Source: Pseudomonadota bacterium
GTDB lineage: Bacteria; Pseudomonadota; Gammaproteobacteria; Arenicellales; UBA868
DNA length: 64,000 nucleotides
NCBI GenBank assembly: GCA_016845525.1
Contig: JAERSQ010000103.1
Coordinates: forward strand, 1 to 64,000
Direction: 5' to 3'
In this document: piece after piece, positions 6,641 through 53,436 of the stretch
How the letters are laid out: the number at the start of each line of letters is the position of its first letter
Position numbering within the stretch: position 1 is the first letter of the stretch
Translations under genes and position numbers: made by a program
Notes under the pieces: generated by a model
Told to the model about the DNA's origin: nothing
The model's input: the letters and a program-made list of their open reading frames with translations, nothing else
Databases searched by the model: none

Positions 6641-7241
6641 TCCTTCGGACAGCGAAGACGCGTGCCAATCGGGCGAGGATGCGCTCGCCAGTTTAGTGAT
6701 GTCGTTTGGCGGCAGCGTTTCGACGGCTTTTCACGAACGTACCGTAACGGTCGGTTGTGATCAGGCGTTTGCGCTTTTGCGTTCCCTGCGGGATAACGCC
6801 GCAACCCGTTTTGAACAGCTTATCGATCTGTGTGGCGTGGACTACAGTAACAGCGCTCCAGTAGAAAACGACCACCCTGAACGCTTTGCGGTGGTGTATC
6901 ACCTGCTGTCGGTGTCGCGAAACGACAGACTCCGGGTGGTCGCTTATCTGGCGGAAGATAGCCCCCGTATCAGGAGCGTGGTCGGTATCTGGGCGTGCGC
7001 CAACTGGTATGAAAGAGAAGCGTTTGATCTCTTTGGCATCCTGTTTGAGGGCCACCCGGATCTGCGCCGTCTGCTCACGGACTATGGCTTCATCGGGCAT
7101 CCGATGCGCAAGGACTTCCCGTTGAGCGGCCATGTCGAAATGCGGTTTGACGAGAAAAAAGGGCGCGTTGTGTATGAGCCCGTGTCTATTGACCCAAGAG
7201 TGACCGTACCGCGGGTCATTCGGCAGGAGTCTGTCGAATGA
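6618..7241 (+). CDS. nuoC: NADH-quinone oxidoreductase subunit C
   Basis: Peripheral-arm 30-kDa subunit of complex I. The 207 residues include the diagnostic [26 protein letters not shown] stretch in two parts ([25 protein letters not shown]) and HPMRKDFPL. The start is GTG at 6618, inside nuoB, with AAAAGAAG about 8 bases upstream. nuoC is a separate gene here, unlike the fused nuoCD of E. coli. ATGA overlap with nuoD. Confidence 0.96.
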
Positions 7242-36480: not shown

Positions 36481-37361
36481 GAGGGCTGATTCTGGCGGGC
36501 GGAGCGGGAACCCGGTTGGCGCCGGTAACACAGGTGGTCTCCAAGCAGCTTTTGCCGGTCTACGATAAACCGATGATTTACTACCCGCTTAGCGTCCTGA
36601 TGTTGGCGGGTATCCGGGACATCATGTTGATTTCTACGCCGCAGGATACACCGCGGTTTCAGGAACTGCTGGGAACCGGAGAGCAATGGGGCTTAAACCT
36701 CGCCTATGCGGTCCAGCCCTCTCCGGACGGCCTTGCGCAGGCACTGATCATCGGCTCCGAATTTGTCGGGAACGGGCCTTGCTCGCTCATCCTCGGAGAT
36801 AACATTTTTCACGGCGATCAATTATCCGATGCCGTCAGGCGTGCCGCCGCGCTGAAGGCCGGGGCGACGGTATTCGCCTATCCTGTAAATGATCCCGAGC
36901 GTTACGGGGTGGTGAGCTTCGACGATCAGGGTAGAGCGCAAACACTTGAAGAAAAACCGACAAAACCGCGTTCACGATACGCGGTGACGGGCCTGTATTT
37001 TTACGATCAGAACGCGGCTGACTATGCACGATCGTTGAAACCGTCGGATCGCGGTGAACTGGAAATCACCGACCTTAACCGGGTTTATCTTGAGCAAGGC
37101 AGCCTCAACGTCGAGTTGCTGGGACGGGGTACCGCCTGGCTTGATACCGGTACCCATGAGTCTCTCCTGCAGGCTTCGGTGTTTATCGAGACGCTCGAGA
37201 CGCGTCAGGGAATGAAGATCTGTTGTCCCGAGGAGATCGCATTCCGTATGGACTACATCGGGATCGAAGCTCTTGCAGAGCTGGCCTCAAACCTAGGCAA
37301 GAGCACGTATGGAAAGTATCTTCGTGAGTTGGTGACGGAGCATCATTCGGGCGACTCTTAA
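36477..37361 (+). CDS. rmlA: glucose-1-phosphate thymidylyltransferase
   Basis: Makes dTDP-glucose, the substrate of RmlB. 294 residues with [38 protein letters not shown] and [11 protein letters not shown] 36477 is fixed by a perfect GGAGG 6 bases upstream and the ATGA overlap with rmlB; in-frame sequence back to 36414 lies within rmlB and is not used. Confidence 0.97.
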
Positions 37362-37376
37362 GGCATCCTTAGCACA

Positions 37377-38222
37377 GTGCGGAGAGAGCTTTTGCGATCA
37401 ACTACCACGCGCCATCGCGCGGATCCGCTCTATATTCCCGGGAGCATTGTCGAACACCGCTTTGTCATTGGCCAGCTCGCAAAGCGGGCGATTCTGGGGC
37501 GATACCGCGGGACAGTGCTGGGTTTGCTATGGTCTCTATTAACGCCACTTCTGTTGCTTGCTGTCTATACCTTCGTTTTTGGCACGATCCTCCAGGTCCG
37601 GTGGGTTTCGCAGAGTGGAGGCAATGCGGAATTTGCTGCTATCCTGTTTTCCGGTATGTTGGTCCACGGCATCCTGGCGGAGTGCCTCACACAGGCCTCA
37701 ACCCTGATTGTCTCCAACCCGCAATACGTTAAAAAAGTCGTCTTCCCTTTGGAGGCGTTGCCCTGGGTCACCGTGATCAGCGCGTTCTTTCAGGGTGTAA
37801 TCAGCACAGGAATCCTTCTAGCGTATCTCTTTTTCGTCCAGGGAAGCATTCCCTGGACGGCGGTGCTTTTCCCAATTCCGTTGTTTGTTCTTGCCTTCGT
37901 TTGTATCGCCGTCGGTTGGCTTATCTCGGCGACGGCGGTGTACCTCAAGGATATTGCGCAGATGATGGGCCTGCTCAGCACGGTGCTTTTTTTCATGGCG
38001 CCCATTCTTTACCCCAAGACCGCGTTGCCTGTCGAGTTCCAAAACCTGCTCTACCTTAATCCTCTTACCTACATCATCGAACAGTTTAGGGCGGTCGTGT
38101 TGTGGGGTGAACTCCCCAACTGGAATGGATTAGGCCTGTATGGAGTTGCTTCAGTCGTGATTGCCTGGATGTCGCTCGCTTGGTTCCAAAGAACGCGAAG
38201 AGGATTCGCAGATGTCCTCTGA
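37377..38222 (+). CDS. wzm: polysaccharide ABC exporter, permease subunit (Wzm type)
   Basis: ABC-2 type membrane subunit that, with Wzt, moves a finished lipid-linked polysaccharide across the inner membrane. 281 residues, about six membrane segments, with the amphipathic RAILGRYRGTVLGLLWSLL typical of the family before the first helix. The start is GTG 37377; a TTG at 37392 with GGAGAG upstream is an alternative. The last 11 bases overlap wzt. Confidence 0.93.
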   Translation: MRRELLRSTTTRHRADPLYIPGSIVEHRFVIGQLAKRAILGRYRGTVLGLLWSLLTPLLLLAVYTFVFGTILQVRWVSQSGGNAEFAAILFSGMLVHGILAECLTQASTLIVSNPQYVKKVVFPLEALPWVTVISAFFQGVISTGILLAYLFFVQGSIPWTAVLFPIPLFVLAFVCIAVGWLISATAVYLKDIAQMMGLLSTVLFFMAPILYPKTALPVEFQNLLYLNPLTYIIEQFRAVVLWGELPNWNGLGLYGVASVVIAWMSLAWFQRTRRGFADVL

Positions 38223-39582
38223 GTCGTCAATCAGTGTAACGGGGCTGGGCAAGGATTACCGAATTTACGGCAGGCCGATCGACCGGATCCGCGAGATGTA
38301 TTCGGTCCGCGGGCGCACCTACCATTCGGTCTTTACGGCATTGAATGACGTCAGCTTTGACGTCGTTTCGGGAGAGACGGTCGGGATTATCGGCCCAAAT
38401 GGTTCCGGAAAATCCACCCTGCTTGAGATGGTATGCGGTACGCTCACTCCAACCCGGGGCACAGTAGCGGTGAGCGGCAGATTGGCCGCGCTTTTGGAGC
38501 TCGGCGCGGGCTTTAATCCCGCGTTTTCTGGGCGGGAGAATGTTTATCTGAATGCAGCTTTGTTGGGCATTTCCAGAGAAGAGGTTGAGGATCGTTTCGA
38601 GGATATCGTCGAGTTTGCCGGCATCGGAGAGTTTATCGAGCACCCGGTCAGTACCTACTCCAGCGGTATGTATGTCCGGCTTGCTTTTGCAACTGCTGTG
38701 AATACGGACCCAGACATCCTGATTGTCGACGAAGCTCTCGCCGTCGGTGATATTCGATTTCAGCGAAAGTGTTTCCGTCGTTTTCAGGAGATGCAAAAAG
38801 CAGGAAAAACGATTCTTTTTGTTACCCATTCGGTAGACCTTGTTCAAGCCCACTGCTCACGTGCGATTTATTTGAAGTCTGGAAATATCCGGTCAAAAGG
38901 CGAGCCTAAGGCCGTGATCCAGGACTATCTGGAAGATCTTTTTGGATCAGAGCGTTCAGCTGCAACTCAACCTCAGTTAATGGAATCGCCGGCGTCGCCT
39001 CCATCAGGCACTATGGAAGAAGACAGGGCCGGGGTCGGCGGGAAGATTAGAGTATCTTCAGGAAAAACGCGAAGCCCCGTGAGCGTAAAGTGCCCGCCGG
39101 ACCTTTGCCCAACTCGGCCGCTTTACAATTCGAATGAGTATCGCTGGGGTGATCAGCGGGTCGCGATCTATGACTATGCGCTACATGGGGAGAATGGACC
39201 CGTAAGAGGCGGGTTCGAGCGCGGACAAAAAGTGGGCCTTGATCTCTCCGTGTTCTTTGTTGAGAACGTCAAAGATCTGATCATCGGATTCACGGTGAAA
39301 ACGGTTGATGGTCGAACTGTTTTTGGCGCGAATACCCGAGAAAGGGGTATTGAGGTGCCAAGTCTCGCGGCAGGCTGTGAGATCCTCGTGCGCTTCGACT
39401 TCATTTGTGCTCTTATTCCCGGGGAATACTTTCTTTCGATTGGTATCGCGCAGGATGATCTCAGTCGTGACAATGTCGCCGTAGATCGAAGGTACGATCT
39501 CATTCATATGCCGGTGCGGGGTGCGCCGGGCGACTTTGGGGTGGCAGATCTTGGCCTCGCGATCGCGTTCCCCCATTCATGA
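38212..39582 (+). CDS. wzt: polysaccharide ABC exporter, ATPase with C-terminal carbohydrate-binding domain (Wzt type)
   Basis: 456 residues from ATG 38212 (AGAGG 9 bases upstream). Residues 1-250 are the ATPase: Walker A GPNGSGKST at 61-69, signature YSSGMYVRLAFA at 149-160, Walker B ILIVDEALAVGD at 169-180. A polar linker (about 255-300) leads to a beta-sandwich region (about 305-456; RWGDQRVAIYDYAL, FGANTRERG, PGEYFLSIGI) matching the Wzt C-terminal domain, which in E. coli O8/O9a recognises the capped end of the O-antigen. Export of a terminally marked chain is therefore inferred. Coupled to wzm (11-base overlap) and to the giant protein (ATGA). Confidence 0.93.
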   Translation: MSSESSISVTGLGKDYRIYGRPIDRIREMYSVRGRTYHSVFTALNDVSFDVVSGETVGIIGPNGSGKSTLLEMVCGTLTPTRGTVAVSGRLAALLELGAGFNPAFSGRENVYLNAALLGISREEVEDRFEDIVEFAGIGEFIEHPVSTYSSGMYVRLAFATAVNTDPDILIVDEALAVGDIRFQRKCFRRFQEMQKAGKTILFVTHSVDLVQAHCSRAIYLKSGNIRSKGEPKAVIQDYLEDLFGSERSAATQPQLMESPASPPSGTMEEDRAGVGGKIRVSSGKTRSPVSVKCPPDLCPTRPLYNSNEYRWGDQRVAIYDYALHGENGPVRGGFERGQKVGLDLSVFFVENVKDLIIGFTVKTVDGRTVFGANTRERGIEVPSLAAGCEILVRFDFICALIPGEYFLSIGIAQDDLSRDNVAVDRRYDLIHMPVRGAPGDFGVADLGLAIAFPHS

Positions 39583-42500
39583 ATGACAGCGCTAACAATC
39601 CGGACACGCCATTGAGCTTCGGTCTCCTCCCTGAGAAGTTGCGTCGGGCAGTCAACCGGTTCCCTGATTTGTCTGGGATTGCAGGGGAGGCTCAACCCCT
39701 AGGCGCAGCGGTCGAGGGACTACCTCACCTTCGGCTCGAGTCAGCGGGAGTGTCTGATTTGCTGGGTTTGCCAGAGCACCCTTCGGTGCTGCTCTGGAAC
39801 TGGGAAGGGCTTGTGATGGCGCGCCAACTTCTGGATGACGCAAGTCGAGTCCGTATTTGTGATTCCAGAGCCGAATATCTGGAAGTTGCACGTTTGCTGT
39901 GCGGCGATGACAGTATTCACTCACCGGGCGAGCCGTTTACAGATATCCCAGTTCCTGATGTTGTCTTTGTTGGCAGCAAAAGCAACGATTCGGAAGATCT
40001 CTTCGATGGACTAGGGCAAATTCTGATAAAAACCCTTGATCAGGGCGGGGTGATTATGGCGGCCGAGCCACAATCCTCACGCCACCCGATCACATCCATT
40101 CTCCGCGCCAACAGCCCGGAAGGCGACTCACTGGGTGAAGAGAGTATCCTGGTGCTGCCGGATGTTGATAATCCAGAACTGCTGATCCGCCAAACCTTCC
40201 TATATGAAACCCCGGAAGCGTGGAGACATCTCGCCGGTTATGTCGATGAATTCGGGGGGGCACGTTTCCCCGGCTCGGTTCCCATTAGGCACGTGTGGTC
40301 ACTGTTTGAGGAATCGCGAAGATTTCCGCTTCAGGATGTTTCGAAATACCAGGTCTTCTGGAGGCGCGACAAAGCCGAGCGCGACCCTATAGAGCTTGAC
40401 TTTATCCATCAGTCGATCGGGCAACGTGTGCGCCAGTATTGGACGAAAACGGTCAAGCCCCGCGGTGAAACGATAGTTGAGCGGCGACCCATATTTGAAA
40501 CAGAGAATCTATCGGAGGGGGGAAGGGAAGAACAGAAAGATATTGAGCACGTGTTGGACCGGGAAGACTACAAAACCGGTCCGACCTTGGATGAGTTATG
40601 GTTGGATGCGCTTCGGCTAAACGATGTTGAACGATTCAAAGATCTAGCACAAAGGTTTTTCGAATTTCTTGAGGCCATTACGAAGGGCCAAACTACGGTA
40701 TGGGTCGACCTGCTTCCCGATAATATTCTGGTAGACGACGACAACTTCATCCCGATAGATCAGGAGTGGCGTTGTCCGGCCAAGCGACTTAGCTTAGACG
40801 CCATGTACTGCCGGGCGCTGGTCTATTTCCTAAGTCGAAGCGCCCTCGCACTAGACAGCCTACCTGCTGCTAGGCGGTGGGGCACCACTCATTATGAGTT
40901 TTTAGTTGGTGCGTGTAGCGAAGTGGGGGTTGCCCCAGATCCGGCGCTCACCGCGGTCGAAGAGTTCGAAAGGATGTTTCGAAGGGAGACTCTGCTAAGT
41001 TTTGGTGTTATCGAAATAACCAGCATGCTTGAACGTCGGTTTGGTGATCAGGACGCAGTTGAACTAGTCGGGTCGCTCGGGGGAGATGAAGACTCAGAGC
41101 GATCACACGCTGTGATTCCGTTTCCTTCCAGCTCGAGCGGATCTGGATGTCGGTTTGTCTTCCGTTTTTCCAGCTACCCAGGAATTCCCGAGGCACTCGA
41201 TCTGATTTTTCCATCGTGGCTGGGATTGCCTCGAATCAAGGCGGGAACAGTGACGAGCGCTGGCAATACTTTCCCCTTGGGGGGAGCCGATACGAAAGAA
41301 ATTGATGTCGGGACCCTGGCAGGCGTCTTTAAGGGACGTTTTTCCAATCGGGCGAGAGGAGTGAGAGTCGCAATTGACTCAGGGTTGCTGATTTCGGGTC
41401 CCGATGTCTCGTACGTGATTGACCTTGAAATGGTATGGCCCAAGATGGTCTTTGGTCCTGATGCAGATGAGAGATTGGTTCGCGGACTTTGGGGCAAAGA
41501 GGGTATGCTCGACGCGGCCCGGAATCGCGTCTTGGAGCTCGAATCGGAACTTGCGCAAAGTGAGAAAAAGCATAGCCTTAAACACGCCGAGCTCGAGCTT
41601 CTAAAGTCATCCAAGGCCTGGAGGGTTGCAGAGGTTCTTCGAAAAATCTTCTTTGGATGGAGAAAGCCTCAGGACGAGGTACGCAATCTTAGTGCTATTG
41701 AGCAACTCTCTCAGAAGCCTGCATCTCCGACGGAACGGTTTTCGTACCTGACTGAAGTCGGACAGAATAATGTCGACTTAGATATTACAGCTACCCCCGC
41801 CGGGCCGTTGATTTCGGTAGTGATTCCGGTTTACAACACGCCGAAGGCTTGGTTGGCGGATGCCGTTAATTCAGTCCTAGGGCAGTCCTACCCCCATTGG
41901 CACTTGATTCTGGCCAACGACGGCTCTACGAACGTAGGCACACGAGAATTCCTGGATAACCTCGATGACCCAAGAGTCACGAAGATTCAGCTCACCAGAA
42001 GTGCGGGAATTTCAGTGGCCACGCAGATGGCGGTTGACGGAGCACACGGCGAATTTATCGCACTGATGGATCATGACGACATGCTGGCGCCAAGCGCCCT
42101 TCAGAAAGTGGCCGAGAAGATCGCGGATCATAACGCTGATGTTGTCTATACCGATGAAACCACATTCAGCGATAGGACAGAGCAAAAACACGACGGCTAT
42201 TTTGGTCTGCCGCATCTGAAGCCGGCTTATTCGCCGGATCTGTTGTTATGCCACAACTACATTACGCATTTGCTGGTGATCAGGAAGAATCTGATCGATC
42301 AGGTCGGAGGATTTCGGCCTGAATTCGACGGGGCGCAGGACTTCGATCTGCTTTTGCGGGTGACAGAGCAGACAGATCGTGTGATTCATATCTCTGAGCC
42401 GCTGTACCACTGGCGCCAGTCCGTCCAGTCTACGAGCCTTGATACAGGTGCCAAGCCATTGGCGCACATGCGCGGTTGCCAGGCTGTTACCGAAGCGCTG

Positions 42501-43424
42501 GATCGTCGAGGTATCAAGGGAGAGGTGCTGACTGCCAACGGGCCGCATTTTTTTCGGGTCCGGCGGAAAATTATTAATCAGCCCCTGGTGGAGATCGTTA
42601 TACCGTTTCGTGACCAACCCCTCATGCTTCGGAAGTGCATCGACGCGCTCTTAGCAAATACCCGCTATCCGCAATACCGAATCCTCGGTGTGGACAACGG
42701 AAGCACGGAGACCTTGACCCACGAGTTGATGTCCCAATATCAGTCAGAAACCGACCACGTTCGTTTTGCCAGGCTGGACGTCCCGTTTAACTTTTCTCAA
42801 ATTGTCAATTTTGGCGTGCACAATGCCCGGGGTGCCCATGTGGTGCTCATGAATAATGATATCGAGGTGATCAATAGCGATTGGCTCGAGGCGATGCTTG
42901 AGCATTCTCAACGCCCTGAGGTCGGGGCCGTCGGGGCCAAACTGTACTATCCCGACGACACCATTCAGCACGCCGGCATCGCGATAGGAATCGGAACTTA
43001 TGCGGGTCATCCCCATAAACATGTGGAGGGCGGGTATTCGGGGTATCTGAATAGGCTCCACAATATTCAAAACGTATCTGCCGTGACGGGTGCAATGCTG
43101 ATGGTGAAGCGCGATTTATACAATGCTCTGGGCGGATTCGACGAGCATCTGTTTGAAATTGCCTGCAATGATGTTGATTTTTGTCTCCGCTTGCGAAGTC
43201 AGGGCCTGTTGAATATTTTTACGCCGTATGCCCGAGCGTATCACCATGAATCTGTCAGTCGCGGATATGAAGATACGCCGGAAAAGAAAGCCCGGTTTGA
43301 AAAAGAGGTCGATGCGTTCAGAAAGCGTCACGGCGAGGTCCTCGCCAAAGGCGACCCGTACTACAATCGTCACCTACGCTTAGACACGGAAGCAGTTTTG
43401 GCGCGCCCCTGGAGCGAGGCATAG
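39579..43424 (+). CDS. giant multidomain polysaccharide protein: MT-like, kinase-like, beta-rich, coiled coil, two GT2 domains
   Basis: 1281 residues. About 55-170: a Rossmann-like part without a readable SAM motif I, probably a decayed methyltransferase. About 215-480: a kinase-like part with VDLLPDNIL (Asp377, Asn382) and IDQEW (Asp394, Glu396), recalling the HxDxxxxN/DxE arrangement of aminoglycoside-kinase folds. About 510-625: beta-rich, ending near SGLLISGPDVSY. About 645-685: charged heptads (LELESELAQSEKKH). About 743-990: GT2 domain 1 (ISVVIPVYN, MDHDD at 830-834). About 1003-1250: GT2 domain 2 (VEIVIPFRD, MNNDIEV from 1091). It starts inside wzt, so it is made with the exporter. The order recalls WbdD, which caps O9a chains and carries a coiled coil, but here polymerising-type transferases are fused on. 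Acceptor and sugars are unknown. Confidence 0.85.
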   Translation: MNDSANNPDTPLSFGLLPEKLRRAVNRFPDLSGIAGEAQPLGAAVEGLPHLRLESAGVSDLLGLPEHPSVLLWNWEGLVMARQLLDDASRVRICDSRAEYLEVARLLCGDDSIHSPGEPFTDIPVPDVVFVGSKSNDSEDLFDGLGQILIKTLDQGGVIMAAEPQSSRHPITSILRANSPEGDSLGEESILVLPDVDNPELLIRQTFLYETPEAWRHLAGYVDEFGGARFPGSVPIRHVWSLFEESRRFPLQDVSKYQVFWRRDKAERDPIELDFIHQSIGQRVRQYWTKTVKPRGETIVERRPIFETENLSEGGREEQKDIEHVLDREDYKTGPTLDELWLDALRLNDVERFKDLAQRFFEFLEAITKGQTTVWVDLLPDNILVDDDNFIPIDQEWRCPAKRLSLDAMYCRALVYFLSRSALALDSLPAARRWGTTHYEFLVGACSEVGVAPDPALTAVEEFERMFRRETLLSFGVIEITSMLERRFGDQDAVELVGSLGGDEDSERSHAVIPFPSSSSGSGCRFVFRFSSYPGIPEALDLIFPSWLGLPRIKAGTVTSAGNTFPLGGADTKEIDVGTLAGVFKGRFSNRARGVRVAIDSGLLISGPDVSYVIDLEMVWPKMVFGPDADERLVRGLWGKEGMLDAARNRVLELESELAQSEKKHSLKHAELELLKSSKAWRVAEVLRKIFFGWRKPQDEVRNLSAIEQLSQKPASPTERFSYLTEVGQNNVDLDITATPAGPLISVVIPVYNTPKAWLADAVNSVLGQSYPHWHLILANDGSTNVGTREFLDNLDDPRVTKIQLTRSAGISVATQMAVDGAHGEFIALMDHDDMLAPSALQKVAEKIADHNADVVYTDETTFSDRTEQKHDGYFGLPHLKPAYSPDLLLCHNYITHLLVIRKNLIDQVGGFRPEFDGAQDFDLLLRVTEQTDRVIHISEPLYHWRQSVQSTSLDTGAKPLAHMRGCQAVTEALDRRGIKGEVLTANGPHFFRVRRKIINQPLVEIVIPFRDQPLMLRKCIDALLANTRYPQYRILGVDNGSTETLTHELMSQYQSETDHVRFARLDVPFNFSQIVNFGVHNARGAHVVLMNNDIEVINSDWLEAMLEHSQRPEVGAVGAKLYYPDDTIQHAGIAIGIGTYAGHPHKHVEGGYSGYLNRLHNIQNVSAVTGAMLMVKRDLYNALGGFDEHLFEIACNDVDFCLRLRSQGLLNIFTPYARAYHHESVSRGYEDTPEKKARFEKEVDAFRKRHGEVLAKGDPYYNRHLRLDTEAVLARPWSEA

Positions 43425-43469: not shown

Positions 43470-44429
43470 ATGTCAAATCTAGCGGTATCGGTCATCCTAC
43501 CGGTCTTTAACGAGGCGGACAATCTGGAGCCACTGACCAGGGACATTCTGGCGGCTCTGGAGGATACCGGGAGGTCCTATGAGATCATCTTCATAGATGA
43601 TGGCAGTACAGATCGGTCTCTGGAGGTGCTGACCGCGCTGCAAAGAACCCACTCGTCGATCGTGGTGATTGAGTTTCGACGAAATTTCGGACAAACCGCG
43701 GCGCTTGCTGCGGGGCTTCGCGCCGCTGAAGGAGAAGTTGTGGTGACGATGGACGCGGACCGCCAGAACGACCCACAAGATATTGGGATGCTGCTGCGGG
43801 AAATCGATCAGGGAATGGATCTGGTCTGTGGGTGGCGGCACGAGCGCAAAGACGGATTGTGGCTCCGATTACTCCCATCGCGCGCTGCCAACTGGCTGAT
43901 TTCGACAACCACGGATGTCAAACTCCATGACTACGGCTGCACGCTAAAGGCCATGCGCAAGGACGTAGCAAAGAACCTGCGTCTGTATGGAGAAATGCAT
44001 CGTTTCATACCGGCCATTGCCAGTTGGTATGGGGTTCGCATGAGCGAAGTCAAGGTGCGGCATCATCCCCGGACCGCCGGCGTATCGAAGTACGGGTTAT
44101 CGCGCACATTCCGAGTGCTGCTTGATCTGCTTACGGTGAAGTTCCTGATGGGCTATTCTGCGCGGCCTATCCAGTTTTTTGGCAGTATTGGGCTCGCGTG
44201 CACCGTCGCCGGTGGGAGTGTACTCGGATGGCTTTTCATTGAGCGAGTCTTCCTTGGGATAGCGCTCGCCGGTAGACCCGCTGTTCTGGCCGGTATTGTC
44301 TTGACACTAATCGGGCTTCAATTTGTTACGGTGGGACTCCTTGCCGAGCTCCAGGCTCGAACCTACCACGAGTCCCAGGACAAACCCATCTACGAGATTC
44401 GCCATACTTATAGAGGCCGAGAATCCTAA
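43470..44429 (+). CDS. membrane-anchored GT2 glycosyltransferase (DPM1/GtrB/ArnC type)
   Basis: 319 residues. N-terminal GT2 domain (about 1-230) with SVILPVFNEADNL, FIDDGSTDRSLEVL and MDADRQNDPQDI, then two C-terminal membrane helices (about 232-258 and 266-290). Proteins of this build transfer a sugar from a nucleotide to undecaprenyl phosphate, for later use outside the membrane (GtrB, ArnC). No GtrA-type flippase or GtrC-type transferase adjoins it, so its partner is unknown. It lies 45 bases after the giant gene. Confidence 0.9.
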   Translation: MSNLAVSVILPVFNEADNLEPLTRDILAALEDTGRSYEIIFIDDGSTDRSLEVLTALQRTHSSIVVIEFRRNFGQTAALAAGLRAAEGEVVVTMDADRQNDPQDIGMLLREIDQGMDLVCGWRHERKDGLWLRLLPSRAANWLISTTTDVKLHDYGCTLKAMRKDVAKNLRLYGEMHRFIPAIASWYGVRMSEVKVRHHPRTAGVSKYGLSRTFRVLLDLLTVKFLMGYSARPIQFFGSIGLACTVAGGSVLGWLFIERVFLGIALAGRPAVLAGIVLTLIGLQFVTVGLLAELQARTYHESQDKPIYEIRHTYRGRES

Positions 44430-44487: not shown

Positions 44488-46305
44488 GTGTCCAGTATCT
44501 CGATAGTTATTGTCAACTTCAATTCGGGCGCCTTCCTGGAGGCGGCGATAAGTTCTCTGCGCCGGTTGACACCGAGTAGTGAGCTGATTGTTGTCGATAA
44601 TGACTCTTCGGATACCAGTGCAGACTTTCTAAGCCGCCAGTCCGACGTGCGCTTGATACAACTAGACCAAAACTATGGTTTTGGCGCCGCGTCGAATATT
44701 GGGGCGACCAAGGCCACCAACGACCTGATATTGTTCTTAAACCCCGATGCGTTCATGCCTGAGGGAGCTCTCCAGAAGATGGCAGCGTACCTTGCTGCTC
44801 ATCCCGAGAGCGGGATTTGCGGCACGCTGTTGCTTGACTTTCAAGGGCGTGAGCAAGCGGGAAGCAGACGTCATGATCCGACATTGCTTCGCGCCTGCGG
44901 CAAGGTGGCAAGATCGATCAGCCCGCTTCGGATGCTGCCAACTTTTGATCGACATGATGAGCCGCTTCCGAGAACATCTGTTTATGTTGATGCGATTTCG
45001 GGTGCGTGCATGATGGTTCGACGGGAGGTACATGAGCAAATCCGGGGGTTTGACGAGGGCTATTTTCTTCACTTTGAGGATTTGGACTATTGCAGGCGTG
45101 CTCGTGAACACGGTTGGAAGATCGGATTTCTTCCTGACGCGTCTGTTTTTCATTATCAGGGGGGTTCGGGGTTGGTAACAGAGATCTCGCTGCTACGGCA
45201 TAAAGAGGAGGGGCTTCGGCGTTATTTGAATAAATTCGGCGCTCAGGGTGTACTGTCGCGGGCTCTTAGGGCGTGCATATTGACCGTGCTGGGCCTATGC
45301 GGAAAGGTTTTGTTTATCACGATAAGTGCTCGCCGCAACCGGCATGCGGCTCAAGGGAGCCGACCGGTTGACAGTTCACTGGTCAAGATCGGGCAAACGC
45401 TGACTGGACAGCATCCGGTCGTGCTGGTTTTCGGCGCAAGGAGTGATGTGGGTGATGCGGTTAACTCGCGCCTAAATGCCTGTGGCTTGCGGACGGTCAG
45501 CGTCACTCGACATCCCGACGCTGTGAGGAGATCCCCGCCTTCGAGCACGATTCATCCGGAGATGGCGGTTCGCAACAATATCGGCGCAGGTTTGAATGTG
45601 GTTGCGGTCGTGAGCCTTTGCCCAGTTTGGGAACTGTCTGCTTTTGAAAGATTCTTAGGAGCATCTGTCGGAGATCGAACGCCCTGGATCGTCTTGAGTT
45701 CTACCAGCGCTGTCACGAAAATGGACTCGGATGATGAACGTGCCCCCGGTATCGCGTCCAGACTCCGGGAGGGGGAAGAGTGGCTCGCGCGATTCCGGTC
45801 CGGCGCTTCGGGGTTAACCGTTGTCCTGCGACCGACACTAATTTACGGAGGAGTGCGGGGTAGAAATATCAATAAAATCAAAGCGTTCACAAGGTATACC
45901 AGAATCCGCCCGAATCTCGAATTCGCAGAAGGCCGCAGGCAGCCTGTTCACTGCGATGACATCGCGGAGTGGACAACAGCCCTATTGAGCCAGGCGTTAG
46001 ATGAGCCGGGAACGGCCCGTCCGGCAAGCGGAAAATCTGCGCCGACTCTTGTTGAATTGGGTGGAGGCGAAACTTTGTCCTTTGCGGAAATGGTCAACCG
46101 CACGCAAGCAGCAGCTTGTGTGGGTGGAGTCAAGTTGCTGTGCAGGCGTAGAAGTGTCCGCTTCCTCTTTTCCTTGGTGAACTGGCTGCCGTGGTTCAGT
46201 GAGGTGCCCAAGGATTTTGTGAGTCGCCTCGAAAAGGATTTTCTGTTTTCAAATAACAGGGCCCTCGGGCTTCAACCCCAGTCGTTGAGGCGGTTTTACC
46301 CATAG
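44488..46305 (+). CDS. GT2 glycosyltransferase fused to an NAD-dependent epimerase/reductase-like domain
   Basis: 605 residues from GTG 44488. About 1-270: rhamnosyltransferase-like GT2 (ISIVIVNFNSGAFL, VDNDSSD, LFLNPDAFMP, GACMMVRREV). About 305-605: an extended SDR domain with FGARSDVGDAV as Rossmann loop, SSTSAVTK, LRPTLIYGG and RQPVHCDDIAEW. No YxxxK pair is visible in the expected place. The C-terminal half resembles the WbpV-type enzymes that accompany WbpL and WbpM, whose homologues follow directly, so reduction of a 4-keto sugar to QuiNAc or FucNAc is the likely role. A weak hairpin (44442-44460) lies in its leader. Confidence 0.85.
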   Translation: MSSISIVIVNFNSGAFLEAAISSLRRLTPSSELIVVDNDSSDTSADFLSRQSDVRLIQLDQNYGFGAASNIGATKATNDLILFLNPDAFMPEGALQKMAAYLAAHPESGICGTLLLDFQGREQAGSRRHDPTLLRACGKVARSISPLRMLPTFDRHDEPLPRTSVYVDAISGACMMVRREVHEQIRGFDEGYFLHFEDLDYCRRAREHGWKIGFLPDASVFHYQGGSGLVTEISLLRHKEEGLRRYLNKFGAQGVLSRALRACILTVLGLCGKVLFITISARRNRHAAQGSRPVDSSLVKIGQTLTGQHPVVLVFGARSDVGDAVNSRLNACGLRTVSVTRHPDAVRRSPPSSTIHPEMAVRNNIGAGLNVVAVVSLCPVWELSAFERFLGASVGDRTPWIVLSSTSAVTKMDSDDERAPGIASRLREGEEWLARFRSGASGLTVVLRPTLIYGGVRGRNINKIKAFTRYTRIRPNLEFAEGRRQPVHCDDIAEWTTALLSQALDEPGTARPASGKSAPTLVELGGGETLSFAEMVNRTQAAACVGGVKLLCRRRSVRFLFSLVNWLPWFSEVPKDFVSRLEKDFLFSNNRALGLQPQSLRRFYP

Positions 46306-46338
46306 ACCTGGATCAACGAAGAAGATAAATCGTATTCA

Positions 46339-47382
46339 ATGTCGGGCGGAATCTATTTAATAACGCTCCTTGGGAGCGGGGTGATGACGGGCTTAGTCTT
46401 GGGGTGGTTTCTGAGGACGGATAGCCTTCTCCTGAGCAAGGACGAGCCTTCCTCTCGGGGTCTTCATGACCACGTGGTGCCGAGGGGCGGTGGCTTGGCC
46501 ATCTTTGGCTGTGTCGCAATAGCAGGCGTTATGGTCCACCTACTGCAGGGTACGAAAAACGCCCATCTAGATCTTCTTGTGATCGTATCGCTAACCGGTG
46601 TTGGCGTAATGGGGTTTCTCGATGATCGATTCAGTCTCGGCGTTGGTCTGCGTCTGATAGCGGGTCTAACCTTAACAACCCTTCTCGCCGTTGGATCGAT
46701 CGGGGATCACTCGCTCCTAATTTTTGGGCAGACCTCCGACTGGTCGTTCGCCGCAGTGCTTCTTGCAGGAACGATTGGGCTTTTCTGGCTTATGAATCTG
46801 TTCAACTTCATGGACGGAGCAGACGGAGTTGCAGGAGTTCAGAGTCTTATAGCGAGCGGTACGCTTGCAATCTGGTTTGCAGCGTCGGGCCAAGAGTTTT
46901 TGGCTCTCACGAACGTAGGGCTAGCCGGGGCATGCTTGGGCTTTTTGTGGTTCAACTGGGCTCCCGCGCGGGTGTTTATGGGGGATGTGGGAAGCCTCGC
47001 CTTGGGCGCCTGGTTTGGCGCGATGAGCCTGATCGGGGTGAGTGAGTATGGGCTACCGGCCGAGGCGTTCTTGATTCTCCTCGGCGTATTTGTGTTTGAC
47101 GCGACGCTCACGCTGGGTCACAGACTGCTGAAACGAAAGCGAATTACCCAGGCGCACCGTGAACATCTCTATCAGAAACTAATTCTGGCGGGCTGGAGCC
47201 ATGGGAAGGTCGCCGTGCTGATAGGGGCAATGGCTTTTGTTGCAGCCGTTCTGGCAACCCTGGTGGTTTGGTATCCGCAGCACGGCCTATGGTTCTTTCT
47301 TGTGACGCTTGTTATGCTCCTTGGGTACGCAATCCTCGCGATTCGCGCGAGTGCAAACATCTCGAGACGGGCAGCGAATTAA
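46339..47382 (+). CDS. wbpL: polyprenyl-phosphate HexNAc-1-phosphate transferase (WbpL/WecA family)
   Basis: 347 residues, about ten to eleven membrane helices. HDHVVPRGGGLAIFG near the N-terminus, FLDDRFSLG, the catalytic NLFNFMDGADGVAGV and FMGDVGSLALG define the GT4 phosphotransferase family that starts O-chains by moving a sugar-1-phosphate from UDP to undecaprenyl phosphate. Coupling with WbpM- and WbpV-like enzymes suggests that FucNAc or QuiNAc is the first sugar. It stops 7 bases before wbpM. Confidence 0.88.
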   Translation: MSGGIYLITLLGSGVMTGLVLGWFLRTDSLLLSKDEPSSRGLHDHVVPRGGGLAIFGCVAIAGVMVHLLQGTKNAHLDLLVIVSLTGVGVMGFLDDRFSLGVGLRLIAGLTLTTLLAVGSIGDHSLLIFGQTSDWSFAAVLLAGTIGLFWLMNLFNFMDGADGVAGVQSLIASGTLAIWFAASGQEFLALTNVGLAGACLGFLWFNWAPARVFMGDVGSLALGAWFGAMSLIGVSEYGLPAEAFLILLGVFVFDATLTLGHRLLKRKRITQAHREHLYQKLILAGWSHGKVAVLIGAMAFVAAVLATLVVWYPQHGLWFFLVTLVMLLGYAILAIRASANISRRAAN

Positions 47383-47389
47383 CATCGGT

Positions 47390-49288
47390 ATGGAGCGATC
47401 CTGGTTAGATCGGGTGAGAGCCGCGGTGCGGTATCTTTTCGGCCGCTGGCCGGTACTGGCGCACGATGCGGCTGCTGCGTGTGTCGCTTGGTTAGGGGCA
47501 TACTGGTTCCGGTTCAACCTCGACCAGATTCCGGACGTGTTCTTGGATCAGGCATTCGCAGTGCTTCCGCTGGTCGTGTTCTGGCATCTGGTCTTTTTCG
47601 TAGTTTTCGGCGTCCATCGGGGTGCATGGCGCTTCACGTCGACACACGATCTTTCGGTCATTTTGAAGTCTGTGGTCGTCGGGACCGCGGTGGTGGCCTT
47701 CTCGATCTTTCTTGCGACCCGACTTGTTGCGGTACCGAGGTCTGTTTTCCCGTTACATGGTGTTTTCCTTGTGGGGCTTTTGATCGGAAGCAGAATCCTT
47801 TATCGGCTTTTCCGTGACCGCCAAGTGAGCCGGGGCGAGGGCAAACGGGTTTTGATTGTGGGGGCAGGGGCTGCGGGAGATATGCTGCTGAAAGACCTTG
47901 GCCGCAATCAGGAGATTCATTATGACGTCGTGGGTTTCATCGACGACGATCAGACCAAGAAAGGGCGCGAAATTCAGGGCGTTCGGGTACTGGACCGGTG
48001 CGCGGCGATTCCGCAGTTGGCGCGACTCTTGCGAGTTGAACTGATCCTGATCGCGGTCCCAAGCGCCAATGCAGAACAAATGCGCTCAATTGTGGACTAC
48101 TGTGAAAGAGCGAAAACGCCGTTCAGGACGCTGCCCAAGGTTCAGGATATCCTTGACGGTACGGCATCCAGCGCAGATCTTCGATCGGTAGAGTTGGACG
48201 ATCTTCTTGGACGCGACCCTGTCAACCTCGATTGGGAAGCAATGGCGGGGATGATCAACGGCCGGCGAGTTTTGATTACAGGCGGAGCGGGATCCATTGG
48301 GAGTGAATTATGCCGGCAGGTGGCTCGGCTTGAGCCCGAGGAGATTACGCTTTTCGAGCAGAACGAGTTTAGCCTGTACTCATTGGCACTGGAGCTCGAG
48401 GAACAGTTTCCTGACGTTCGCTTCCGGCGCTTGTTGGGCGATGTCTGCGATTCACAAGCCGTGCGGTTTGTCTTTTCCCAATATAGCCCCCAGGTCGTTT
48501 TTCATGCAGCTGCATACAAACATGTTCCAATGCTGCAGGCCCAACTGCGGGAGACAATCCGAAACAATACTGTAGGGACCATCGTTACGGCGCGTGCCGC
48601 TGTTGAGAGTGGGGTGGAGAAATTTATCCTGATCTCTACGGACAAAGCGGTAAATCCGACCAGTATGATGGGTGTAAGTAAGCGGCTGGCAGAAATGGTT
48701 GCACAACTGAATAACGCGGAATCGACGACCGCCTTTATCACGGTTCGATTTGGCAATGTCCTTGGCTCAGCAGGGAGCGTTGTCCCGCTTTTTGAAAGGC
48801 AAATTCGTGCGGGCGGCCCGGTTACGGTGACGGATCCTATGATGACACGGTACTTTATGACCATCTCGGAGGCCTGCCAGTTGATTCTCCAAGCCTGCGC
48901 GATCGGCAGGGGAGGGGAGATATTCGTGCTCAACATGGGTGAGCCCGTAAAGATCGATTATCTGGCACGCCAGATAATCCGCCTGTCCGGAAAGGTGCCT
49001 GACGAAGAGATCGAGATTAGATACACAGGCTTGCGGCCCGGAGAGAAACTGACCGAAGAACTTTTCCATCCGGATGAGAACCTGACCCCAACCTCCTACG
49101 AGAAGATCCTGCTCGCGCAAAGTCGCAGTTTCGATAGAACACATTTGGAGAGCCGACTCGAGGAGTTACGCCAGTGTGTCGAGATTTACGATCACGAGCG
49201 GGCACGCGAGATCGCTATCGGGCTGGTTCCCGAGTACCGGGAAGATCAAAACGGCAACACAGCAGAGTTTCCCAATCAGGCAGCGTAA
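47390..49288 (+). CDS. wbpM: membrane-bound UDP-GlcNAc 4,6-dehydratase (WbpM/CapD family)
   Basis: 632 residues from ATG 47390. Four N-terminal membrane helices (about 15-135), a first nucleotide-binding domain (IVGAGAAGDMLLKDL) and a catalytic SDR domain with GGAGSIGSEL from residue 298. The catalytic site reads ISTDKAVNPTSMMGVSK: Asp418, Lys419, and Met427 in place of Tyr with Lys431, the SMK triad known from WbpM/FlaA1 relatives. Forms UDP-4-keto-6-deoxy-HexNAc. Upstream in-frame sequence to 47309 lies in wbpL. It converges with csiV, with only 7 bases between stops and no terminator visible. Confidence 0.93.
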   Translation: MERSWLDRVRAAVRYLFGRWPVLAHDAAAACVAWLGAYWFRFNLDQIPDVFLDQAFAVLPLVVFWHLVFFVVFGVHRGAWRFTSTHDLSVILKSVVVGTAVVAFSIFLATRLVAVPRSVFPLHGVFLVGLLIGSRILYRLFRDRQVSRGEGKRVLIVGAGAAGDMLLKDLGRNQEIHYDVVGFIDDDQTKKGREIQGVRVLDRCAAIPQLARLLRVELILIAVPSANAEQMRSIVDYCERAKTPFRTLPKVQDILDGTASSADLRSVELDDLLGRDPVNLDWEAMAGMINGRRVLITGGAGSIGSELCRQVARLEPEEITLFEQNEFSLYSLALELEEQFPDVRFRRLLGDVCDSQAVRFVFSQYSPQVVFHAAAYKHVPMLQAQLRETIRNNTVGTIVTARAAVESGVEKFILISTDKAVNPTSMMGVSKRLAEMVAQLNNAESTTAFITVRFGNVLGSAGSVVPLFERQIRAGGPVTVTDPMMTRYFMTISEACQLILQACAIGRGGEIFVLNMGEPVKIDYLARQIIRLSGKVPDEEIEIRYTGLRPGEKLTEELFHPDENLTPTSYEKILLAQSRSFDRTHLESRLEELRQCVEIYDHERAREIAIGLVPEYREDQNGNTAEFPNQAA

Positions 49289-49295
49289 GTCCGTT

Positions 49296-49943
49296 CTAGC
49301 GTTTCTCGGCTAAAACGAAAAGCATTCCGAAATTAGGGTGTCCCAGGTATTGCACTTTCCCGAGGACTAGCCGGCGGGAGTCGCGAATGATCCAGGGAAC
49401 AGGCTGCGTTTCCTGAGGTTGTGGGGGGGCGGTTTTCTCGGGCGTCAACGTGTCTCCAGAGTGCGGCGTGTAAACCACGGACGTTGTGATCGGCCGATTC
49501 GGCGCACCCTGATACTGAAAAACGATGCGAATATCAGATGGCCGTGGGGCCCCTTTGCGTTTTACCCGGAAGCGAATTGGAGAAACTTTTCCCGAGGCCA
49601 GGATCACGGCTTGTGCGTGAAGGGTAACGCGATAAAACGGGCTTGCACTCAATCGTGTTTTGTATGCCTTCAGTATCCCTGAGTTTGAAAGGAGCGAGTG
49701 ACCTCTCCCGAAAACCGTATCGATGCTGGAGAGTTCGTCCAGCGCCAGCAGATGGTTGTGCCGGGTGTCCTGCTCTGGTGAGGATTGGGAGGATCCCTGG
49801 TGGGTAAAGATGAGGTACTCTAATCCCAGGGGCTCATTTCCCCAGGAGACAGATACTCCGGCTACATAAAGCGTAACAAAAAAGCAGGGTCCTAGGGTCC
49901 GGCGAAGCCACATGGAAACCAAAGGCCGATGTTTAAGTCCCAT
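49296..49943 (-). CDS. csiV: CsiV-family periplasmic protein
   Basis: 215 residues with a signal peptide (hydrophobic about 15-32, cleavage likely after VSWG), then a beta-rich region and a conserved end LGHPNFGMLFVLAEKR. In Vibrio, CsiV is a peptidoglycan-binding periplasmic protein linked to cell shape, and its gene lies beside mfd, as here. It overlaps the mfd stop by 11 bases. The assignment rests on mfd linkage plus the C-terminal HPNFG pattern. Confidence 0.75.
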   Translation of the reverse strand: MGLKHRPLVSMWLRRTLGPCFFVTLYVAGVSVSWGNEPLGLEYLIFTHQGSSQSSPEQDTRHNHLLALDELSSIDTVFGRGHSLLSNSGILKAYKTRLSASPFYRVTLHAQAVILASGKVSPIRFRVKRKGAPRPSDIRIVFQYQGAPNRPITTSVVYTPHSGDTLTPEKTAPPQPQETQPVPWIIRDSRRLVLGKVQYLGHPNFGMLFVLAEKR

Positions 49944-52900
49944 GAGTAAACTGATGGGTTATTTCAGCAGGAAGTGGTGTCAGTGCCTGAGATTCGTCCA
50001 GGGTGTCGAGTACCCAATCCGCCAGCATGGCCCGAAGCGCTGAATCAGCAAGATCAGAGGGCAGGGAAAGTTCAAGCGGGCTTTTCATTGAAAACAATCC
50101 GGAATGTTCGCTAAGAAGGGTCACAAATCGGTCGGGTGAGACGCCGGCGTCAGGATGGAACGTCATTCGACCGCCGCGCGGGCCGCACCTCAGTTCCCTG
50201 ATCCCGGCAGTTTTTCCTTTGATCCGGATCCCGCTTACCTGAAAGAGCATTTTCGTTTCAGGAGGCAACAAACCAAAGCGATCAACCATCTCGAGATTTA
50301 ACTCGTAAAGCGAGCCTTTATCCTCGCAATCGGCTATGCGTTGATAGAGCACAAGGCGCGTATGCACATCCGGGATGTAATCTTCCGGAATATAGGCACT
50401 CGTTTCCAGATCAATCTCGCATACTGAGTCATCAGGAAGCTGCCGGGCAGCCGGCTCTTCGGAAAGATCCCGGATTGCTCGGTTCAGGTAGTCGGAATAC
50501 ATCGAGAATCCGATTTCTTCGATGACCCCGCTCTGGCCCTCTCCGAGCAGTTCGCCGGCACCTCTTATTTCGAGATCATGATTTGCGAGGGCGAACCCAG
50601 CGCCAAGTTCTGTCAGGGCTTCCAGAGCCTGCAGTCGCCTTTTCGCTGATGCCGTCATCAATTCAGGATCAGGCACCAACAAAAAGGCATAGGCTTGATG
50701 CCGAGATCGGCCAACGCGTCCACGCAACTGGTGAAGCTGCGCAAGGCCGAACCGGTCAGCCCGGTTCATGATGATGGTGTTGGCGGTTGGGATATCAATA
50801 CCGCTTTCGATGATGGTGCTGCAGACCAACAAATCGAACCGCTGATGATAGAAATCCCGCATCACGGATTCGAGATCACCCTTGGGCATTTGGCCGTGGG
50901 CGATTTCAATTGATGCTTCGGGAATCAGCTCTTTCAGATCCGTCGCGACCCGGTCGATCGTCCTCACTTCGTTGTGGAGGAAATACACCTGTCCGCCACG
51001 ATGCATCTCACGCAGACAAGCCTCCCGAATTAGATGCGTCGAGTAGCGCTGCACCGAAGTCTTTATCGAGACCCGTCCGGGCGGCGGAGAACCGATCAAG
51101 GAAATGGAGCGCAGCCCGGATAAAGCGATGTTGAGGGTCCTGGGAATCGGGGTGGCGGTGAGCGTGAGGACATCGACCTCTTCACGAAGCTGCTTCAGCC
51201 GCTCCTTTTGACGCACACCAAAGCGATGTTCCTCATCAATGATCACGAGACCGAGACGCTGGAATTCAAGGTCCCCCTGAAGCAGGCGATGCGTGCCGAT
51301 CACGATGTCGACCGCACCGCTGCGGATGCCCCGCACCAGTTCGGCATTGGCGGCGTGTGACTTGAAGCGGGAGAGCCCTTCTATTCTGATGGGGTAATCA
51401 GAAAAGCGCTCAGTAAAGGTGTTCTGGTGCTGATTGGCCAGTAAGGTCGTTGGGGTCAGTACCGCTACCTGATATCCGTTTTGCGCCACGACGAAGGCAG
51501 CCCGCAGGGCGACCTCAGTCTTGCCGAATCCGACATCGCCGCACACCAGCCGATCCATCGGTGCCGACCCCTCAAGATCCGAGAGCACTTCCTGAATCGC
51601 CTGCTCTTGGTCAGGGGTCTCATCATAGGAGAATCCGGCCCGAAAGGCAGCATACTCCACTTGGGGCTGGGGGAAGCGGCGGCCCGGGCGAAGTGTCCGC
51701 AATGCCTGTGTTTTTAAAAGTTCCGCGGCTGCATCGTGGGCACGTTTCTTCGCACGGCCTCGTGCCTTTTTCCATTGATCGCTTCCCAGGCGATGCAGTG
51801 GCGCATGCTCCGGATCTCCACCGATATACCGCGAGAGCACATTGATATTGATCACGGGTATGTAGAGTTTGCCGTCGTCGAGATAGTGGATCACCAGAAA
51901 CTCGTTCTTTCGGCTGTTAATTTCCAGCCACTGCAGGCCTCCGAATCTACCGACGCCGTGTTCCAGGTGAACGACGGGGTCCCCGTCATGGAGCTCCGCA
52001 ATAGAACGAATAATCGCTTCGGGATCCTGAGTCTTGCCTCGTTTTCGGCGATGCACCCGTTCACCGTAGAGTTGGGATTCCACGACGATCTCAACATAAG
52101 GCTGGGCCGAGACGAGCCCTCGATCAAGTTGAGAGGAGATGACGGCGAGGGTGTCGCTTGGAGAATCAAGAAACGCTTCCCAGTTGCCGACCGGCTTCGC
52201 GTGAAAATTATGACCGGCCAAAACCTCTGTTAATGATTGAGCCCGGCCCGGGGTCTCTGTGCTTAGCAGAATCTTCGGCTTGGAACGGCCGGAGAGTCGG
52301 TCAATTAGAGCAGCAAAGGGTGAGTTAGATTTGTGATCGACGGGATAGACTGGCGGAGAGTCGGTATACCGCGAGGCGGAGCCCGGAGTTCCATGATGGC
52401 CGATCTCAATAACCTCAGAGTCCAAAATCTGATTTGCCGCGGTGTCGGGGTCGAGACACAGCGTCTCGGGAGAGAGCGGTTGTCGCTCAGAGTCAAGGCT
52501 GCAGTACTCAAACCGATCCCGGACACTCGCAAGTTCAGTGTGGATCTGATCTCGCCAGTCTTTTGGAACAAGCCATTGAAGATCTTTCGGAAGAAAGTCA
52601 AAAATGATGCCCGGCGGATTGAAAAAGAGTGGAAGATAAAACTCTATGCCCGCAGGGAAGCGGCCCGCAGAGACTTCGCGGTAAATCAATGACGACTGAG
52701 GATCACCCGCCATCTGTTGTCGGTATGATTTACGGAATTGCTCGATCGCAGCCTGGTCCGTGGGAAACTCCCTGGCAGGGAGAATGCTGAGAGTTGTGGT
52801 TTCCCCCGTTGATTTCTGATTCTCAGGATCGAAAAAGCGAATGTTTTCTATTTCGTCTCCAAATAGATCGAGTCGGAAGGGTGCTGTCGCCCCCATGGGA

Positions 52901-53436
52901 AACACATCAATAATCCCCCCGCGGATCGCATATTCACCCTCAGATTGAACTTGGGAGACGCCGAGGTAGCCGGCATCCGAGAGTTGATCTCGAAGCTTGA
53001 ACGCATCGATCGTATCCCCGCGGGAAAGATTAAAGCTGGCGCCAGAGATAAACTCTTTTTTTGGTAACCGAAACAGGATCTGCTCGGCGCAAACGAGCAG
53101 AATAAAGGGATCCGGTCGGCACAACTGCTCCAATGTGCGGATCCGCTGTGAAGTAATCTCCGGATGAGGTGAATAACGGTCGTAGGGCAGGCATTCCCAG
53201 CCAGGCAGGACACAGACTCGGTTGCTGTCCTCATCCAGAAAGAACCGGAGTTCGTCAACCAGAAGCTCGAGCTCTCTGACGGACGGCGCGAGAACCGCAA
53301 GGTGAGGTTGAGTCTGTGCGAACTCAGCGATTCTCAGGGCCAACGCAGAGCCCGGAGAGTGCGGCCAGTTTTTTGGCTGTTTGCTCGCTGGTGGAGCTGG
53401 CGAGACAGCAGAGGAGGGTGACACGAGTGCGGGCAA
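49933..53436 (-). CDS. mfd: transcription-repair coupling factor Mfd
   Basis: Removes RNA polymerase stalled at DNA lesions and recruits UvrA. 1167 residues: UvrB-homology N-terminus (VCVLPGWECLPYDRYSPHPE), RNA-polymerase-interacting domain with the usual GDPVVHLEHGVGRF, then a RecG-type translocase with Walker A VCGDVGFGKTEVA, IIDEEHRFGV and QLRGRVGRSRHQAYA, and the C-terminal TRCF domain. The start is TTG at 53436, with a GTG four codons further in as alternative. Divergent from ispD across 48 bases. Confidence 0.97.
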   Translation of the reverse strand: MPALVSPSSAVSPAPPASKQPKNWPHSPGSALALRIAEFAQTQPHLAVLAPSVRELELLVDELRFFLDEDSNRVCVLPGWECLPYDRYSPHPEITSQRIRTLEQLCRPDPFILLVCAEQILFRLPKKEFISGASFNLSRGDTIDAFKLRDQLSDAGYLGVSQVQSEGEYAIRGGIIDVFPMGATAPFRLDLFGDEIENIRFFDPENQKSTGETTTLSILPAREFPTDQAAIEQFRKSYRQQMAGDPQSSLIYREVSAGRFPAGIEFYLPLFFNPPGIIFDFLPKDLQWLVPKDWRDQIHTELASVRDRFEYCSLDSERQPLSPETLCLDPDTAANQILDSEVIEIGHHGTPGSASRYTDSPPVYPVDHKSNSPFAALIDRLSGRSKPKILLSTETPGRAQSLTEVLAGHNFHAKPVGNWEAFLDSPSDTLAVISSQLDRGLVSAQPYVEIVVESQLYGERVHRRKRGKTQDPEAIIRSIAELHDGDPVVHLEHGVGRFGGLQWLEINSRKNEFLVIHYLDDGKLYIPVININVLSRYIGGDPEHAPLHRLGSDQWKKARGRAKKRAHDAAAELLKTQALRTLRPGRRFPQPQVEYAAFRAGFSYDETPDQEQAIQEVLSDLEGSAPMDRLVCGDVGFGKTEVALRAAFVVAQNGYQVAVLTPTTLLANQHQNTFTERFSDYPIRIEGLSRFKSHAANAELVRGIRSGAVDIVIGTHRLLQGDLEFQRLGLVIIDEEHRFGVRQKERLKQLREEVDVLTLTATPIPRTLNIALSGLRSISLIGSPPPGRVSIKTSVQRYSTHLIREACLREMHRGGQVYFLHNEVRTIDRVATDLKELIPEASIEIAHGQMPKGDLESVMRDFYHQRFDLLVCSTIIESGIDIPTANTIIMNRADRFGLAQLHQLRGRVGRSRHQAYAFLLVPDPELMTASAKRRLQALEALTELGAGFALANHDLEIRGAGELLGEGQSGVIEEIGFSMYSDYLNRAIRDLSEEPAARQLPDDSVCEIDLETSAYIPEDYIPDVHTRLVLYQRIADCEDKGSLYELNLEMVDRFGLLPPETKMLFQVSGIRIKGKTAGIRELRCGPRGGRMTFHPDAGVSPDRFVTLLSEHSGLFSMKSPLELSLPSDLADSALRAMLADWVLDTLDESQALTPLPAEITHQFTHGT

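Follow-up and report, generated by a model that had tools for sequence, protein, structure and literature searches.

A glycosyltransferase fused to a tyrosine-less short-chain dehydrogenase/reductase upstream of wbpL- and wbpM-like genes in an Arenicellales O-polysaccharide locus

In contig JAERSQ010000103.1 of the assembly GCA_016845525.1 ( Pseudomonadota bacterium; Gammaproteobacteria, Arenicellales, UBA868), one open reading frame joins a glycosyltransferase of family 2 (GT2) to a protein half resembling the short-chain dehydrogenases/reductases (SDRs), and is followed by genes of the WbpL and WbpM types. The window analysed here comprises 64,000 nucleotides, positions 1 to 64,000 of the forward strand of this contig. 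The first-pass annotation of the window likened the SDR half to the WbpV group, which reduces 4-keto-6-deoxy-N-acetylhexosamine (4-keto-6-deoxy-HexNAc) linked to uridine diphosphate (UDP). The locus raises the question of whether the SDR half is indeed a WbpV-type reductase or a different protein standing in the same place. Our comparative analysis places it in a distinct SDR family that lacks the tyrosine of the YxxxK pair. The features on which this answer depends are as follows:

44488-46305, + strand: open reading frame of the GT2 + SDR-like fusion, 605 residues, GTG start, single open frame
44488-45255, + strand: GT2 glycosyltransferase domain of the fusion, residues 1 to about 256 (PF00535, E 1.1e-24; NPD 85-87 and ED 197-198 invariant in 20 aligned fusions)
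45250-45342, + strand: predicted 31-residue helix between the fusion halves, residues 255-285 (AlphaFold2 model of the whole fusion, hydropathy)
45406-46305, + strand: Tyr-less SDR domain, residues about 307-605 (G316/G322, R341, S405/S407/K411, Y453, N460, R484, H488, D491; G421 and R425 at the YxxxK positions)
46339-47382, + strand: WbpL/WecA-type polyprenyl-phosphate sugar-1-phosphate transferase (PF00953, E 1.7e-30, 106.6 bits, cut-off 27)
47390-49288, + strand: WbpM/PglF-type UDP-N-acetylglucosamine 4,6-dehydratase with N-terminal membrane region (PF02719, E 4.4e-113, 377.8 bits; PF13727; TDK and MGVSK)

The fusion had been described with the right coordinates, and it is no sequencing accident, since seven further genomes of the genus carry intact fusions (53-80% identity). 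The PF00535 match spans residues 5-185, and the DxD-like motif N85 P86 D87 and the pair E197 D198 are invariant in 20/20 aligned fusions, as expected of a GT2 enzyme. Against the rhamnosyltransferase family TIGR01556 the GT2 half scored 54 bits, below the curated cut-off of 200.55, and a Foldseek search with the whole-chain model returned mostly GT2 folds, e.g., N-acetylgalactosamine transferases, which carry no information on the donor sugar. The SDR half alone gave only sub-threshold matches in Pfam (best E 0.041) and NCBIfam, and phmmer against the PDB returned just two chance matches, to nucleoporin; a profile of its family did find PDB relatives. The AlphaFold2 model of this half, built from 18 relatives (mean predicted local distance difference test score, pLDDT, 85.9), matched SDR proteins with a best Foldseek E of 1.3e-11 and a VIA-align Z of about 21, so that by its predicted structure the C-terminal half is an SDR fold. 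In the model of the whole fusion (pLDDT 85.1) the two domains are linked by the long helix of residues 255-285, which holds a hydrophobic stretch of 19 residues starting at residue 263 (mean hydropathy 2.09) and may contact the membrane.

Relatives of the SDR half were found in the same order, the same class, other phyla and on Pseudomonas plasmids, and the family set comprises the 85 distinct SDR domains that scored 150 bits or more with the profile. The lack of a readable YxxxK, already remarked upon in the first-pass annotation, is real: G421 and R425 occupy the Tyr and Lys positions in the window, and throughout these very divergent domains, many of them just 25-30% identical, Tyr is found at its position in 0/85 and Lys in 17/85. 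A chance YxxxK spacing occurs in one of the 85 rows, in the right region but not at the aligned position. Conserved among the 85 are S405 (83), S407 (83) and K411 (83, with Arg in the other two), forming the pattern S405-x-S407-x3-K411, together with Y453 (84), N460 (79), R484 (83), H488 (84) and D491 (83). The glycines of the dinucleotide-binding motif are retained as in other SDR folds (G316 in 84, with one gap; G322 in 80), and the Arg at position 341, past strand beta-2, is present in 82/85, which would fit NADP binding. S405 appears to correspond to the catalytic Ser/Thr of SDRs, and R484-x-P-x-H-x-x-D with N460 is, as we presume, the counterpart of the sugar-diphosphate site of extended SDRs, where the motif Arg holds this group; such an arrangement fits the binding of a nucleotide- or lipid-linked sugar. 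The missing YxxxK is thus a family-wide trait, with other pocket residues conserved instead, and the constancy of these residues across such divergent domains suggests a ligand and probably chemistry. Annotated records mostly label the proteins "NAD-dependent epimerase/dehydratase"; what is new is that they form a coherent, unnamed Tyr-less SDR family with conserved residues of its own.

For comparison with the canonical reductases, WbpL was used as a query in Pseudomonadaceae, and 50 of the 140 matching genomes were read as loci. A YxxxK SDR stands directly upstream of WbpL in 41 of them, the other 9 having no readable upstream SDR under our filter; wbpK has likewise been described directly upstream of wbpL (PMC6804347). 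Fifteen of these slot SDRs were aligned, and Y142, S145 and K146 are invariant in all (15/15). The SDR half of the window shares their position, directly upstream of the wbpL-wbpM pair, but not their YxxxK. In BLASTP (database size set to 200,000) it matched the 15 slot SDRs with an E of 0.002 at best, whereas distant relatives within its own family gave 1e-14 to 1e-34. Since the family profile rates the slot SDRs (41-74 bits) no better than NDUFA9, the 39-kDa subunit of complex I (70.8 bits), no special closeness to WbpV is shown, and the hhalign probability of 99.9% between the window family and the slot SDRs denotes a common superfamily. Hence the earlier likening to WbpV stands for the slot upstream of wbpL, as in Pseudomonadaceae, and is not supported for membership in the WbpV group: this slot is occupied by two distinct SDR families, one of them without the usual acid-base pair. 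Judged by position alone, an organism could be credited with synthesis of N-acetylquinovosamine (QuiNAc) or N-acetylfucosamine.

The proposal that the SDR half nevertheless acts as a reductase at the UDP level draws on this slot, which it shares with the canonical SDR of Pseudomonadaceae and with a P. aeruginosa plasmid gene, and on the distribution of WbpV-type SDRs: none was detected elsewhere in its own genome (88% complete) at E 1e-30, and there is one clear case (G049, 213.6 bits) among 109 genomes of the order. The absence of WbpV as proof of replacement was rejected, however, by a further arrangement. In each of three genomes of one genus, a GT2, a Tyr-less SDR scoring 314-326 bits and a YAKSK-bearing SDR of the WbpV type scoring 335-338 bits make up a single protein of 976-978 residues, and WbpL comes after it (loci L141, L144 and L148); WbpM is next in the two loci read further (L248 and L251). 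As the Tyr-less SDR travels with WbpV in these triple fusions, it is unlikely to be a plain substitute for WbpV, and the coexistence argues against its being simply WbpV. A UDP-level reductase is accordingly judged unlikely here. Two other long frames were considered in this connection: the 775-residue protein of L162/L262 is not claimed as a second triple fusion, because its last 265 residues reach just 16.5 bits with the WbpV profile, and the longest frame of L155 was rejected as a fusion because it overlaps its neighbour.

The genomic partners of the family were followed within and beyond the order. Outside it, 29 genomes of the class carry a strong family member, not counting G461 (107 bits) or members of this order. 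In 22 of the 29, a GT2 of the fusion type either is fused to it or immediately precedes it; one is cut by a contig end and six have none. WbpL lies directly downstream in 11. The steadiest partner of the Tyr-less SDR is thus the GT2. Within the order, the Tyr-less SDR was found in 62/109 genomes (matches with E < 1e-50, weaker rows dropped; the weakest WbpL rows, after G006:C159, left out), with WbpL adjacent in 45/62 and WbpM within 2.5 kb in 42/62. WbpM occurs anywhere in the genome in 56/62 genomes with the SDR versus 12/47 without it (Fisher p 2.8e-12, ignoring shared ancestry); of the six genomes with the SDR and no WbpM, at least two (G008, G014) have a contig that breaks off within WbpL or WbpM. 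In reading the loci of relatives, L031-L035 were left out as duplicates of L002-L007. WbpL and WbpM as constant partners were rejected: in family f10 the fusion closes a cluster, with RmlA in several genomes, and a different WbpM-WbpL pair lies elsewhere, beside a canonical SDR in both genomes opened, while other loci carry other sugar genes, such as a GHMP kinase and a nucleotidyl transferase beside the family member of L250.

The fused and split states were traced on the family tree. The 33 fused and 47 split rows require 6 changes (shuffled mean 25.7), of which strongly supported branches force 3; five rows that contig ends truncate or leave doubtful (L120, L121, L149, L161, L264) were left out. 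This suggests a long-lived GT2-SDR pair that was repeatedly fused or split, the alternative being one fusion origin with later splits. Split pairs were also observed on plasmids: in P. aeruginosa plasmid NZ_CP083368 (L165, 6076-10917) a GT4 and a WbpM-type gene come after the GT2 and a solo Tyr-less SDR (6980-7858, WP_019484929.1), and a second Pseudomonas plasmid (L166) carries polysaccharide genes that include such a pair. New here are the pairing and fusion of the family with a single type of GT2 and the triple fusion in which it occurs together with WbpV, the parts themselves being of known kinds; no GT2-SDR fusion of such kind was found in the literature searched by titles and abstract openings, subscription literature lying mostly outside that scope.

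The data establish the architecture, the family, its conserved residues, its genomic partners and its co-occurrence with WbpV; cofactor, substrate, chemistry and membrane location we infer from these observations as follows. The reading that we tentatively favour is a membrane-level redox step, performed by the SDR half on a sugar diphosphate handled by the GT2. It draws on the predicted SDR fold, the constancy of the pocket residues, the pairing with the GT2, the association with WbpM and WbpL in the order, the triple fusions and the precedents given below. The GT2 half would most likely act after WbpL, adding a sugar to the lipid-linked first sugar that WbpL makes. The SDR half would bind NADP(H) and a nucleotide- or undecaprenyl-linked sugar diphosphate and perform the redox step on the sugar handled by the GT2, the S405-x-S407-x3-K411 wall replacing the Tyr-Lys pair, and the fusion protein would be membrane-associated. 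The leading candidate substrate in this locus is a lipid-linked 4-keto-6-deoxy-HexNAc from WbpM and WbpL. A bolder version holds that a Tyr-less SDR with a Ser-x-Ser-x3-Lys site reduces an undecaprenyl-borne keto sugar, coupled with the next glycosyl transfer in one membrane-bound protein, a nucleotide-level WbpV having been added in three genomes; taken as a whole, this is improbable. Should the Tyr-less SDR prove to be an enzyme, it would be one more of the few SDRs known to dispense with Tyr, here in the chemistry of sugars, and its being fused to a glycosyltransferase would point to a lipid-linked sugar as its target.

Several observations weigh against the redox step. In four genomes from the family to which the window genome belongs (G077, G078, G079 and G082) the SDR half has decayed, with loss of the S-x-S-x3-K and RPTxIYG motifs, and the GT2 is intact; WbpL and WbpM are kept in G077, G079 and G082, the WbpL of G078 being cut by a contig end. 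G077 and G078 possess an intact solo SDR copy in another locus, and in G079 and G082 neither an intact Tyr-less SDR nor, at E 1e-30, a WbpV-type SDR was detected. The SDR function can therefore be lost or supplied otherwise, and the decay in G079 and G082 with WbpL and WbpM kept likewise speaks against a UDP-level reductase. The same holds for the 18/29 genomes outside the order without WbpL directly downstream, because of which the WbpM/WbpL product may not be the general substrate. Furthermore, the co-occurrence of WbpM and SDR in the order takes no account of shared ancestry, only 15/33 fusions examined carry a hydrophobic linker (hydropathy > 1.6), for which reason a membrane anchor in every fusion was rejected, and the nearest solved relatives by profile include NDUFA9, a subunit without demonstrated catalysis.

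This last point leads to another explanation, in which the SDR half would be a pseudo-enzyme: it would bind NADP(H) or a sugar diphosphate and serve to stabilise, position or regulate the GT2, the kind of role that NDUFA9 has in complex I. NDUFA9, which is among the best profile and fold matches, is reported to bind NADPH and to lie at the membrane, without demonstrated catalysis (PMC8762328). A scaffold of this kind would agree with the lack of Tyr and the scarcity of Lys at the YxxxK positions, with the GT2 as steadiest partner and with the ability of the SDR domain to decay. However, S405, S407, K411, R484 and H488 are kept in 83-84/85 divergent domains, beyond what a scaffold needs, and free-standing genes are common, 52/85 rows being not fused (some of them cut by contig ends). 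We regard the pseudo-enzyme as doubtful, somewhat ahead of the UDP-level reductase; both rank close behind the redox reading.

The solo SDR copies in the two genomes with a decayed fusion copy were located at L116 4242-5261 and L118 3569-4465, next to what we take, from its sequence, to be an MttB-type methyltransferase gene.

Upstream of the fusion the window contains the following genes:

43470-44429, + strand: ArnC-like GT2, upstream partner that also adjoins the fusion in relatives
39579-43424, same direction as the fusion: 1281-residue protein with two C-terminal GT2 domains
38161-39582, + strand: Wzt with Wzt_C domain (PF00005, PF14524), part of an O-polysaccharide ABC exporter
37377-38222, + strand: Wzm (PF01061), part of the same type of exporter
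35356-37361, + strand: RmlB and RmlA, supply of 4-keto-6-deoxyglucose linked to deoxythymidine diphosphate (dTDP) (TIGR01181 458.5 bits, TIGR01207 482.4 bits, both above cut-off)

With Wzm/Wzt, RmlA, RmlB and GT2 genes upstream of the fusion, this is an O-polysaccharide locus of the ABC-exporter type. RmlA and RmlB lie in this locus, and several f10 genomes that lack a local WbpM have RmlA next to the fusion, which could point to reduction of a dTDP-4-keto-6-deoxy sugar by the SDR half. This is very improbable, because another contig of the genome encodes RmlC (263.4 bits) together with a full RmlD (321 bits), so that the dTDP-L-rhamnose route is complete without the SDR half.

Downstream, the earlier assignment of WbpL- and WbpM-like genes was borne out. 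The product of 46339-47382 is of the WbpL/WecA type by its PF00953 domain, and the WbpM-like protein has an N-terminal extension and carries in its PF02719 domain the TDK...Mx3K signature STDKAVNPTSMMGVSK, which characterises WbpM and PglF (PMC8987622). Its reading frame was listed from TTG 47309; the alternative ATG 47390, 8 nt past the WbpL stop, is the more likely start, because the homologous locus L032 has the same spacing from the WbpL stop. A second, partial pair of WbpL (73%) and WbpM (88%) was seen on contig C145 (3-2304) of the same assembly (G000), which possibly reflects strain mixture or contamination (7.4% reported) and not a second locus. For the approximately 700 residues that precede the GT2 domains of the 1281-residue protein, Pfam gave no match at E 0.1. 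A 215-residue frame (49296-49943, - strand), for which Pfam gave none at E 0.001, lies between the O-polysaccharide locus and a long minus-strand frame (49933-53436), presumably Mfd-like.

Compared with known systems, the window family shares with the WbpV-type slot SDRs the extended-SDR fold, the operon position and the WbpL and WbpM types that follow, and differs in the YxxxK, invariant there and never complete here, the two occurring side by side in one protein in three genomes. NDUFA9 is the best PDB profile match and an SDR at the membrane, presumably also without YxxxK; it is a structural subunit, whereas the window protein belongs to a polysaccharide locus, and the likeness is one of fold and profile, the best profile alignment beginning past the S-x-S-x3-K loop, which thus falls outside the comparison. 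The remaining systems serve as precedents for the redox step. The SDR Gnu has been reported to act on an undecaprenyl-diphosphate sugar (PMC3682973), and in Rhizobium etli the last part of QuiNAc synthesis is said to take place on the carrier lipid (Li and Noel 2017, cited in PMC11320575). WbpM and PglF, a type encoded two genes downstream of the fusion here, are described as sugar-nucleotide SDRs that work with Met replacing Tyr (PMC8987622); they keep the Lys of x3K and place Thr-Asp-Lys in the opposite wall, whereas in the window family the wall carries S-T-S-x3-K and the x3K Lys is not reliably present. SimC7, the simocyclinone ketoreductase, which was among the top Foldseek matches, shares the SDR fold without the Tyr and Lys of YxxxK and with Ser kept, and is reported to reduce a ketone with a Ser-Ile-His triad (PMC5039031); it differs in its substrate-assisted chemistry on an aromatic polyketide, and the available part of that report mentions no GT2 partner.

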